DNA of 64,000 nt. Origin: Patagioenas fasciata. Lineage: Eukaryota; Chordata; Aves; Columbiformes; Columbidae. Under the pieces are notes generated by a model. The model had not been told where the DNA came from. It saw nothing but the letters and a program-made list of their open reading frames with translations, and made no database searches. Below are positions 2,617 to 52,197 of this stretch, one piece after another. Position numbers and translations under genes: made by a program. The stretch lies in assembly GCF_037038585.1 (NCBI RefSeq), contig NC_092520.1, positions 3,362,501-3,426,500 of the forward strand, in the 5' to 3' direction. The number at the start of each line of letters is the position of its first letter. Positions within the stretch are counted from its first letter, which is position 1.

Positions 2617-3340
2617 CATCCCTCCATCCTTCCATCCCTCCATTCTCCATCCCTCCTTCCTCCATCCCCCATCCCTCCATCCTTCCATCCCCCATCCCTC
2701 CATCCCCTATCCCTCCACCCCCCATCCCTCCATCCTTCCATCCCCCATCCCTCCATCCCCTATCCCTGCATCCTCCATCCCTCCTTCCTCCATCCCCCAT
2801 CCCTCCTTCCTCCATCCCTCCTTCCTTCATCCCTCCTTCCTCCATCCCTCCACCTCTCCATCCCCATTCCTCCATCCTTCATCCCTCCTTCCTCCATCCC
2901 TCCACCTCTCCATCCCCCATTCCTCCATCCTTCATCCCTCCTTCCTCCATCCCTTCTTCCTTCATCCCTCCACCTCCCCATCCCTCCACCTCTCCATCCC
3001 CCATTCCTCCATCCTTCCATCCCTCCATCCCTCCTTCCTCCACTCCTACATCCTTCCACCCCTCCTTCCTCCATCCCTTCTTCCTCCATCCCCCATCCCT
3101 CCATCCTCCATCCCTCCACCCTCCATCCCTCCTTCCTCCACCCCTACATCCTTCCATCCCTCCTTCCTCCATCCCTTCTTCCTCCATCCCCCATCCCTCC
3201 ATCCTCCATCCCTCCACCCTCCATCCCTCCTTCCTCCACCCCTACATCCTTCCATCCCTCCTTCCTCCATCCCTTCTTCCTCCATCCCCCATCCCTCCAT
3301 CCTCCATCCCTCCACCCTCCATCCCTCCACCCTTCCCTCT
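2617..3340. repeat. Pyrimidine-rich CATCC/CTTCC minisatellite with 98-bp higher-order unit
   Basis: The + strand is almost entirely C and T with spaced A, built from CCATCC, CTCCTTCC and CCCCCATC words. In the right half a larger unit recurs: the marker CTACA appears at 3046, 3144 and 3242, a period of 98 bp. The reading frames across it (IPPS repeats or GWRDGG repeats) are artefacts of the repeat. Confidence 0.93.
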
Positions 3341-28500: not shown

Positions 28501-31500
28501 CTGATGCGCCATGGGTCTTGGGTTCTTTTAGTGCACAAGTGCCTTTGAGCTGCCTGGAAGTTCGTAATGGCTCTGTGGTGGGTAACCTTGAGGAGATTCA
28601 TGCTTTCATGGTGATGTGAACATCCTTGGCACCCACAGAAGAGTGCAGAGGCATCAGTGTTCAGTATTGATTGCTTCTACCAAGGTTATTGTCAAGGTCA
28701 TTTGGTTTGTTCATTCTGAAGAAGAGGAGGTTGAGGGGAGACCTCATCATGGCCTACAGCTTCCTCACAAGGGGAGGAGAAAGGGCAGGTTCTGATCTCT
28801 CTGGCAACCAATGACAGAACCCAAGGGAATGGCAGGAAGATGCGCCAGGGGAGGGTCAGGTTGGACATGAGGAAAAGGTTCTTCACTCAGAGGGTGCTGG
28901 ACACTGAACAGGCTCCCCAGGGAGGTGTCACAGCCCCAACCTGACAGTGTTCAAGAAGAGACTGGATAACATCCTCAGACACACGGTGTGAACTGTGGGG
29001 TTGTCCTGTGCAGGGACAGGAGCTGTACTCGATGATCCTTGTGGGTCCCTTCCAACTCAGGACGTTCTATGATTCTATCATTATTCATGTGGTCGCTGAT
29101 GTTGGCATGGCAGGGTCTTCCTGGTGACAGAGCTGGAGGGTGAGTTTATCACACCAGCCACTTTCCTCTGGGTGGTCCATAGCCAGTGTAACCCACCGAG
29201 TCCAAGTCCTGGCTGTTCCTTATCTCCCTTTAATTGTCCCCTTTCCTGCTGTGGCCCATTCTTCCATGTTAATGGCTGGACTTGATGATCTGAAAGGTTT
29301 TTTCCAACCAAAACGATTCTACGTTTTTATAGCATCTTCCAGCCTCCAAACCCGCTTTCAGACTGGCCAAGTATTTCAGCTGGTTGTTTAGCCAGTGCTC
29401 AAGGACTGGCCACGTGCTCCACTGTATCTGCAACCCATGCTGTCCATCTCTAAAGGCTGGACATAGAGGTTCCCCATTCCCTCCTCTCAGTAAAGTTACA
29501 GCAACCTTGGGCAGATATCCATTGCTCTTTGATGGACACACAGATTACCTGGGCACTTAGACACAGGCTCGATTCTTGCAGGCTTTCCATGATGGAAAGA
29601 AAACTATCAGCCTGTTCTCTGTTAGATGTCTGGGCTCTGGATCTCACCCCACCATGTACAAAACCATCCTTGAATCTCCTGACATGAACTCCAGAAGAGG
29701 ACAACCCTTTGGTCCACACTGTGCTGTTGAGCAGGGTTGTGCAGCTTTATGTAGATGGTTACCAGAGCAATTCTTTGCTACCTTTGCTGTTCTGGGACAG
29801 AAATAATCACCCTTTTCTCACTTGTTGGTGTTTGTTTGGTTGGTTGGTTGGTTTGTTTCTGGTTGTTATTGTTTTGTTTTGTTGTTTTGTTTTATGTTTT
29901 TCCCCATATTAGAAACTATATTGGAGGATATTTTAAACAAAGTAGGTTCCTAACAGCACTTAGGCCAGCTCAAGGCAACACAAGGTATTCTGTCATTGGA
30001 AAACAACACATTGGGACAGTGGGTGGGAGGAGATGGAAATACAGACAATGAAATACATCTCAGTGAAAAATGATAGAGTTGTTCCAGTTGACTTTTTCCA
30101 ACAGAATGCATGGTGGATGCTAGGGACCCCACTCCAGAAATCCCTAATCTGGCCTCCATAGCAAATGCTCCATCCTCCCACGGTGAAAGCACTAACTCAT
30201 GGCCCCTTTTTTGGCTCCATCCCTGTGCCCAGCTGGTGAAGACGGCGGAACTGGACCCTCGGCAGAACTACCTGGTGGGATTTCACCCCCATGGGGTCCT
30301 GGCAGTTGGAGCCTTCATCAATTTCTGCACAGAGGCATCGGGCTTTTCCACGTTCTTCCCGGGCATCACCCCACACCTGATGATGCTCTCCTTGTGGTTT
30401 CGTGTCCCATTCTTCAGGGACTACTTGATGAGTGGAGGTAAGAAGAGTGACAGCGTGGGCCAATGTCTCTGGCAAGTGGTGGGATGGGTGGGTGATTTTT
30501 TGGGGGGCAGAGACTGAAGACACCAGGGGAAGATGAGTCAAGGTTCTGTTTGTTCCTATCTGTGGCCAATTGGATCCCACACATGGACACAGTTACTGGA
30601 GGTGGCACCCAAAAACTCTCTGAAGTTAAAAATTACCCTTCCAGCTGTTTGTTGTTCAACTTCATAGAGCTCAGGGCATCGTTGCACTAGGTGCTGCGTA
30701 ACAGCAAAATGCGGAGCAAATCATGAGCTGAAATGCTGAGGATGCGTCTGGGGACAGAGGATGCAAGTAGCAGCTCACACTGCTGCAAAACCACATTGCG
30801 AGAGAAGAAGAAATTAAATAGAATAGATAAAAATTAAATGAAAAGAGGAGAAAGGGAGTCCTGAGACATTTTTGGAGACCATCAGGAGATTACTTCCATC
30901 ACCCACTGGTGGGCTCGGGGCATGACCACTTCTCCATCCAAATAGGCTCATGTCATGGGCAGGATTCAACAGACTAAACAGAGTCATCCAGCTCCATCTG
31001 AGATACCCCAGGGCATTCATCACCCTGTTTTCCACATAAGCTCTGGCTCTTGCTGCTGAAAAAATATTTACATGGAGAGCGAGGAATCATAACAGTGAGA
31101 TATGAGAGAATTATGGCCCAGGTGAAAGAAGCTTTAATCGCTCTAATGTGCGAGTTCGGTGCACAGCTCATTTTCAGGTCGATTGAATCCATGTGACAAG
31201 GAGGTTTTAATTTACAAATTATTTCAGCACCAGAAACAAGGATTTTTTTATTATTATTATTTTTTAAATCAGAACAAAATTGCTTTGTCATTTCTGAATT
31301 AAAGATTTCTAACTTTTGAAAGTAAATAACAAGGGGCGAAGCTCTGCATTAAATTCCACTTTAAATAAGCAGCATCCAGTGAAATTTGTGTGTGTTTTGA
31401 CCTTAAGCAAATGTTTCACTGCCTTCAAAATTATTCAGGGTTGGACATGGTTTCATCTGACAACAAACCAAAACAGATTTCCCTGGGGTTTAAGTGCCGC

Positions 31501-49516: not shown

Positions 49517-49712
49517 CCCCCTTCCCTTCCCTTCCCTTCCCTTCCCTTCCCTTCCCTTCCCTTCCCTTCCCTTCCCTTCCCTTCCCTTCCCTTCCCTTCC
49601 CTTCCCTTCCCTTCCCTTCCCTTCCCTTCCCTTCCCTTCCCTTCCCTTCCCTTCCCTTCCCTTCCCTTCCCTTCCCTTCCCTTCCCTTCCCTTCCCTTCC
49701 CTTCCCTTCCCT
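49517..49712. repeat. Perfect (CCCTT)n microsatellite, about 39 copies
   Basis: An uninterrupted pentanucleotide array of 196 bases without a single variant unit. The minus strand reads AAGGG, a pure purine strand with GGG runs spaced by two adenines. The repeated FPSLP or GREGK frames are artefacts. Confidence 0.97.
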
Positions 49713-51129: not shown

Positions 51130-51183
51130 TGTCACGGAGGCACCCCGAGGTTAGTTTAAGGGACAACAGGGTCCAAAACAACT

Positions 51184-51189
51184 TTTATT
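51184..51189 (-). terminator. LTR poly(A) signal AATAAA
   Basis: TTTATT on the + strand lies 55 bases from the LTR's 3' boundary, where a retroviral poly(A) signal is expected. Confidence 0.6.
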
Positions 51190-51409
51190 AAACTGGTGAG
51201 AAATAGGGTTTTAGCACTCCAAAAATGACTTAAATACAGGTTCGGATGTCAGTTGAGGAAAATTATTAAAGGGCAGCAACTAATACAACAGGCGGTCCAC
51301 AGAGTGCATGCACGTGGCTTCACCAAAACAATGCAGGAGCCGCCCCTGAGTCCCGGAGGAGTCCACACTTGCCTGAACACGGTGTGGAATTATTTTAAAG
51401 AGATACATA

Positions 51410-51779
51410 TACTCGTAGTGAGTACAGAATGTGTACACTCGCGATTCTACGAGGGTAAATTTATAATACATTTGCAATCCTGCGAGGGTTAATACACGTG
51501 CAAATGTGCATGGAATATTACACATGCTTATGTGGAAGCACGGGAGGAAAATACACTCGCAGTTGTGCAGGGAAATAATTTATACACATGCTCATATTGA
51601 GCACGGAAAGTTACACGTGCAAATGTGCACGGAAAGTTACACGTACTTATGTGGAAGCACGGGAGGAAAATACACCCGTGATTATGCGAGGATTAATTTT
51701 ACACGTGCTCATATTGAGCATGGAAAGTTACACGTGCATATGTGCACGGAAAGTATAAATACACTCGCAATCCTGCGAG
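51410..51779. repeat. Array of about 13 tandem hairpin-forming units inside the LTR
   Basis: Nearly every unit begins TACA and contains an inverted repeat. Stem classes are CTCGCA/TGCGAG (51764-51779), CGTGC/GCACG (51616-51631 and 51733-51748), CGTGCTC/GAGCATG (51704-51722) and CGTACTT/AAGCACG (51642-51661). Units starting at 51493, 51519, 51552 and 51583 are echoed in the same order at 51612, 51638, 51671 and 51700, a higher-order period of about 118 bp. Some stems have lost one or two pairs, mostly by C-to-T or G-to-A changes at CpG; the unit at 51671 is the most decayed. Confidence 0.85.
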
Positions 51780-51907
51780 GAGAAGTTTTACTCACACCCA
51801 TGGCAGCAAGGCAAGCGGAGTCTCCATCCCGGGGGGCTCTCGGCGGTAGAATCTCGCTTGTGCTCCCAGAGACCCGCGACAATGGGCAGAGCCTCAATGA
51901 GAGTCCC

Positions 51908-51917
51908 ATTTTTATAG
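51908..51917 (-). promoter_or_regulatory. LTR TATA box
   Basis: The minus strand reads CTATAAAAAT here, about 280 bases from the LTR's 5' end, which fits a U3/R promoter. Confidence 0.6.
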
Positions 51918-52197
51918 CCTGATCAGACCTGACTGTGGGCATTCCAGAAGCTTCTCTGCACCCCCACACTGGCTGTGGGTGCCCCTGAAGCCTCCAAACA
52001 TCCCCCACATTGGCCGCGGGCGCCCAGCGGCTCCCTGGCACCTCGGCACTGCCTTCTCCTAATGGCCCTGGCCAGGGGGCTCTGGGGCCAAACAAAAGAA
52101 GCTGTCAGCCTCAAACAGCAGAGAGAGAGGGAGATGTGTTTACTCCTTCCATGATGAAGGAGGGAGAGGGAGAAAGGGGCTTTTGCATCCTGCCACA

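Follow-up and report, generated by a model that had tools for sequence, protein, structure and literature searches.

Within the window, by which we mean the whole stretch of 64,000 nucleotides of Patagioenas fasciata DNA that was analysed, the LTR of a dead copy of a bird retrovirus-like element was found to carry thirteen contiguous hairpins, each followed by TGTA. Judged from the surrounding sequence signals, the array lies in predicted R, the part of the LTR that was probably transcribed. Whether it represents a structural RNA module of a spuma-like bird LTR element, in which pairing was kept while the number of units was left free, is in our estimate evenly balanced. We infer that the array was present in RNA and that selection acted on this RNA; the evidence includes a set of paired stem differences between unit types and subfamilies.

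The LTR and its hairpin array

The LTR has TG...CA termini on the minus strand and was inserted at the 3' end of a repeat that we take to be CR1; once joined, the two flanks match further CR1-like sites elsewhere in the window, and the CR1 copies by themselves point to a bird as host. In the bird's own genome (1.45 Gb), 43 match rows were obtained (40 scored of 2712 candidates), most of them spanning nearly all of positions 1-1068. The target duplication of the window copy is inexact (GACGG / AATGG); among 29 same-subfamily copies, 5-bp duplications were exact in 14 and had at most one mismatch in 19. These copies and the minus-strand signals support the LTR identity and orientation proposed in a preliminary description of this DNA, and the TATA box and poly(A) signal that it had placed near 51912 and at 51184 were located there (Table 1). 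On the minus strand of the window copy, TATA box, GTGAGT, array and AATAAA follow one another in this order.

Table 1. Positions of the LTR, its signals and the hairpin units (U1 to U13) in the window.
Feature	Coordinates	Strand	Basis
Solo LTR, TGTGGCAG...CGTGACA ends	51130..52197	-	match rows in own genome
TATA box	51909..51916	-	sequence; variants among 29 copies
Splice-donor-like GTGAGT, just upstream of array	51790..51795	-	GTRAGT motif across copies
Array, 13 contiguous hairpin + TGTA units	51404..51779	-	unit dissection, TRF, copies
U1, type A	51760..51779	-	
U2, type B	51729..51748	-	
U3, type C, AATAY loop, pair 7 C-G (T-A in most older copies)	51700..51722	-	
U4, type A, loop-closing A.C in 23/29 copies	51671..51690	-	
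U5, type D	51638..51661	-	
U6, type B	51612..51631	-	
U7, type C	51583..51605	-	
U8, type A	51552..51571	-	
U9, type D	51519..51542	-	
U10, type B	51493..51512	-	
U11, type A, aligned with first hairpin of young subfamily	51467..51486	-	
U12, type A, aligned with second hairpin of young subfamily	51434..51453	-	
U13, type C variant, pair 4 A-T for G-C in 27/29 copies	51404..51426	-	
Poly(A) signal AATAAA	51184..51189	-	sequence; 24/29 same-subfamily copies

About thirteen units with inverted repeats, and a block of four hairpins recurring every 118 bp or so, had been described previously. Both features were recovered: the units number thirteen, and TRF reported a block repeat of 119 bp, with block spacings of 119 and 117. 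Read 5' to 3' on the minus strand, the unit order is A B C A D B C A D B A A C, with the stems CTCGCA/TGCGAG (type A), CGTGCA/TGCACG (type B), CGTGCTC/GAGCACG (type C) and CGTGCTT/AAGCACG (type D) and with loops that are not alike among the types. The 83 stem pairs of the window copy comprise 68 Watson-Crick, seven G.U and eight A.C pairs and no others. TGTA follows 13/13 stems and occurs 14 times in the array, where a first-order Markov model predicts 4.4. In the 3' flank of U1 (51760-51763) it is present in 16/29 copies and replaced by TATA in 10/29, which may separate two lineages within the 13-unit subfamily. Directly after the array, outside the unit pattern, an extra hairpin CCACAC...GTGTGG (51355-51395, -10.7 kcal/mol) was observed.

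Compared with dinucleotide shuffles, the array folded with z scores of -5.5 (minus strand) and -5.4 (plus strand). Such similarity is expected of DNA inverted repeats, so that the fold itself names no strand, and in isolation the two strands were about equal in energy (-78.4 vs -79.5 kcal/mol). When predicted R of the window copy, which has decayed, was folded in full, the intended stems reached a mean probability of 0.45 on the minus and 0.25 on the plus strand, the modest minus-strand value counting against a strong claim about RNA. A perfect six-pair stem abutting TGTA was found on the minus strand at 3/14 sites in the array vs 0/245 elsewhere, and at 0/173 plus-strand sites outside the array; with one mismatch allowed, the minus-strand counts were 9/14 vs 13/245. 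The array was not set apart by a cruder tally of short stems, in which it scored 9 against a mean of 3.6 and a maximum of 9 over 172 window tiles, the maximum belonging to a tile other than its own. Folded singly, 8/13 units beat at least 195 of 200 shuffles and U13 beat 191, while U4, U8, U10 and U11 of the window copy did not stand out. Local folding was strong in the copies as well (mean z -5.8 in the 29 same-subfamily copies; -4.3 to -9.4 in 14/14 older arrays tested). Rfam gave no match in the window at gathering score; seven weak matches in the LTR all fell below it.

Pairing within one subfamily and between unit types

For the same-subfamily set, 30 loci were fetched and one (L058) was dropped because its flanks are the same as those of L056. 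No two of the remaining 29 copies have adjoining sequence in common, so most of them are solo LTRs. At L077, which has an array of the 13-unit type, the internal end of the element is present on the 5' side (matching the young subfamily described below at 82% across 479 bp), from which it follows that a provirus once stood there; to this extent the earlier reading, for which a provirus with the same array had been named as support, is upheld. Mean pairwise identity was 0.895 in the array and 0.907 outside it. When the commonest state over the 29 copies was taken at each site, 79/83 stem pairs were Watson-Crick, the exceptions being one G.U (U4 pair 2) and three A.C pairs (the loop-closing pair of U4, U8 and U12). 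The source element therefore had intact hairpins.

The differences that have since accumulated follow CpG content: arm sites in CpG differed in 18.9% of cells vs 2.7% at other arm sites, bearing out the earlier view that most mismatches look like CpG decay. CpG-site divergence was 19-28%, and non-CpG divergence was 2.7% in arms, 3.7% in loops, 4.0% in TGTA, 3.3% in spacers and 3.9% outside the array. Single-sided changes at Watson-Crick pairs produced 159 A.C pairs, 156 G.U pairs and 33 transversions. Two-sided changes numbered 22, with 26.7 expected by permutation (1789/2000 permutations reached the observed number). Among stem changes in the 29 copies neither covariation nor a preference for wobble pairs was detected, and the paired substitutions anticipated across copies did not materialise within this subfamily. 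Changes after insertion look neutral, as is expected of dead copies, and selection is consequently not seen directly within a single subfamily.

The proposal that pairing was kept while the letters changed is supported when unit types and subfamilies are compared. Two stem pairs are exchanged on both arms between types A and B, and pair 6 separates type B from types C and D. Pair 4, exchanged in U13 (Table 1), is G-C at U3 in 28/29 and at U7 in 27/29 copies. A pooled set of 57 sequences was then considered, consisting of the 29 old copies, eight extra old ones and 20 older pieces, with L081 left out since it repeats the LTR of L078. At pair 7 of the AATAY-loop hairpin, the 69 matches were C-G in 48, T-A in 16 and otherwise in five. 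Pair 4 was G-C in 47, A-T in 25, G.T in three and A.C in one of 76, and its state followed the loop, 46/47 of the G-C forms standing on AATAY and 23/25 of the A-T forms on ACTAY loops. Both pairs lie outside CpG. In the counterpart of U12, the fourth outer pair is A-T in 30/30 young LTRs and C.T in 25/25 old and 7/7 extra old sequences in which it was found; among 14 older ones found, 12 had a mismatch, L125 had G-C and L126 had C-G. The prevalence of mismatches at this pair outside the young subfamily speaks against the structural reading. These paired differences between unit types and subfamilies indicate that pairing was kept while the source elements were active. As the units share ancestry, independent paired events are few, and by our own count, which is uncorrected for kinship among subfamilies, they may come to only about seven.

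Unit number and element type across the genome

In a sample of 37 loci, obtained with a query that included the array, array length was 369-387 bp in 34, the others being 353 bp (L063), 252 bp (L082) and 430 bp (L078). An older sample was drawn by searching with internal sequence from L077, which gave 42 rows (40 of 420 candidates scored), and 20 LTR pieces were fetched after young-looking rows, duplicates and short matches had been left out; no pair of them was >97% identical across >500 bases. In the 15 with measurable arrays, length was 26 bp in one and 249 to 441 bp in the rest, i.e. about 1 to 15 units. The array of L128 is about 329 bp with part of its 5' flank missing, and the measured set does not include L127, L130, L131 and L139, which are without one or both flanks. 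On a single contig (G000:C47:45.6-66.0 Mb), which may be the W chromosome or another repeat refuge, 22 of the 42 listed rows for the older internal sequence were located.

The 430-bp array of L078 belongs to an old LTR at G000:C1:204972898-204974830 (L078 / L081) that has a young LTR with two hairpins some 40 bp away. Searching with this 763-bp neighbour yielded 42 rows (40 scored of 2268 candidates), 40 of them 99-100% identical. Many of the young LTRs are paired 5-6 kb apart and, judged by flank, internal sequence adjoins 28/30 of those fetched. The LTRs of nine pairs were 99.5-100% identical, and exact 5-bp duplications were present in 7/9 proviruses. At two places (G000:C4:51641162-51653564 and C1:31061074-31073334) three LTRs stand in a row, the middle one flanked on both sides by internal sequence; these rows are tandem proviruses of the young subfamily. 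Two hairpins were found in 30/30 young LTRs; in their commonest form the stems measure 9 and 10 bp (-14.0 and -16.6 kcal/mol). In an alignment of one young LTR to the window copy they fell at U11 and U12, with the spacer between them common to both, and in the second hairpin TGTA forms the outer part of the stem.

In all 15 older arrays that could be measured and in 30/30 young LTRs, an equivalent position is occupied by one hairpin or more. Thirteen are not required, since the young subfamily multiplied with two hairpins and a single hairpin is present in one older LTR. The possibility that this is an ordinary minisatellite, against which the hairpins had been set in the preliminary description, is borne out as to the number of units, which varies, but not as to the arms, whose pairing was kept. 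Tandem repeats in LTRs likewise vary in unit number between copies; they are often located in U3 in the portion of PMC3601003 consulted, whereas here they lie in predicted R and nearly every unit is a hairpin. A literature search over titles and abstract openings, with few subscription journals covered, retrieved no such array in an LTR.

RT, RNase H and integrase domains were recognised in pieces of one young provirus. For a 466-aa RT/RNase H piece, the best five PDB matches had E values of 2e-32 to 1e-26; two are named Peptidase A9 or Protease/reverse transcriptase/RNase H and three Pr125Pol, names that we take to denote foamy virus Pol. PDB entries named p80, presumably gammaretroviral, matched the same piece at 8e-21. 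Close to the internal 3' end lies the integrase core; apart from it, the final 1500 nt of this provirus contain no sense-strand stop-free stretch of at least 90 aa, and hence no env-sized frame. Target duplications of 5 bp are the rule for ERVL / class III elements. The 5-bp duplications, the foamy-like Pol match and the lack, in the single provirus read, of an env-sized frame downstream of integrase are shared with that class, so that, judged from sequence matches, ERVL-like (spuma-like) LTR element is a fitting name. The distance from TATA to AATAAA differs, being about 720 bp in the window copy vs 180 bp given for class III in the consulted part of PMC3601003.

Possible roles and rival explanations

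When the 80-85 nt upstream of the array were searched, GTRAGT was found in 76/79 copies, namely 28/29 of the same subfamily, 18/20 older and 30/30 young ones. AATAAA is likewise present in 30/30 young copies (same-subfamily count in Table 1), and an AATAAA-like motif, with up to two changes in 14, in 16/20 older pieces; the array ends >200 nt upstream of the signal. In retroviral-type elements generally, a poly(A) signal is ignored at one end of the RNA and the same signal is used at the other. In foamy viruses, the consulted part of PMC3694450 places the major splice donor upstream of the poly(A) signal within the LTR, and describes suppression of the 5' poly(A) site via U1 snRNP and use of RNA structure at the 3' end. 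The order of donor-like GTRAGT, putatively structured RNA and AATAAA is the same here as far as sequence tells, while a tandem array of covarying hairpins finds no mention in that part of the source.

Because of this shared order, control of donor and poly(A) use is the most concrete role to test, although as an argument from analogy we consider such a role for the array tentative and rather unlikely. Short stem-loops would have been multiplied head to tail, and their number would be free to rise and fall while pairing was kept; an RNA structure placed between the donor and the signal might let the 5' R be read through and the 3' R be cut, a task for which many small hairpins or two long ones could serve alike. 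A modular RNA device tolerant of copy number, which would grow and shrink by whole hairpins, trade many weak ones for few strong ones and so tune donor and poly(A) use, is more doubtful. With one to about 15 hairpins in a single genome, the subfamilies would form a natural comparative series for the function of RNA between donor and signal, and their different ages make this a case for separating selection on pairing from mutation by template switching.

Such mutation is at the core of the most serious rival, an origin without function in which units were duplicated by unequal exchange or strand transfer of the reverse transcriptase and template switching copied one arm onto the other. We regard this as quite possible, if somewhat improbable. 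It would accommodate the wide range of unit numbers and the neutral-looking decay after insertion, as well as two between-type exchanges, T-A to G-C and A-T to T-A, which allow no G.U intermediate. Template switching reportedly creates and maintains perfect stems, and the paired changes, perfect stems and common four-base loops in the consulted part of PMC8794818 resemble those seen here, although its subject is RNA genes and not LTR arrays. Against it, all types are still paired even though loops and spacers have diverged, and every measured older array and every young LTR has retained one hairpin or more in the equivalent position, which is more than drift needs.

Readings that assign the array another function fared less well. 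Hairpins suit Gag binding in known retroviruses, and a location in the early part of predicted R, towards the 5' terminus of genomic RNA, would fit a packaging or dimerisation signal; yet by inspection the window units have no six-base palindromic loop and no loop motif common to the types, and spliced RNA would be without the 5' array if the donor-like site is used, which makes this very unlikely. UGUA is a CFIm-type motif, and its excess and its place after nearly every stem might suggest a poly(A) enhancer. This is highly improbable, however, since TATA takes its place in the U1 flank of many copies and after the hairpin in 9/10 T-A forms of older copies, since it is built into the outer stem of the second young hairpin, and since the AATAAA lies so far downstream. 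It is equally hard to credit that the units act as palindromic DNA sites for a protein of the host or of the element: the inverted repeats are as good on one strand as on the other, but CACGTG, which occurs four times in the array, is absent from type A, and with arm sequences differing between types no common protein site was kept. A Pumilio reading was rejected, the Pumilio motif TGTAHAWA having one match in the array. Scanning IMG/VR with a 16-base near-palindrome gave 49 stretches whose matches to the LTR, 18 to 24 bases long, were attributed to chance, and longer array patterns found nothing in scans of viral contigs and genome contigs.

Elsewhere in the window, TRF reported a perfect CCCTT array at 49519-49712 (38.8 copies at 100%) and, at 2617-3333, a C-rich minisatellite of the CATCCCTC type with a 98-bp higher-order period. 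An open reading frame at 30110-30517 resembles, by eye, what we take to be a diacylglycerol/monoacylglycerol acyltransferase exon.
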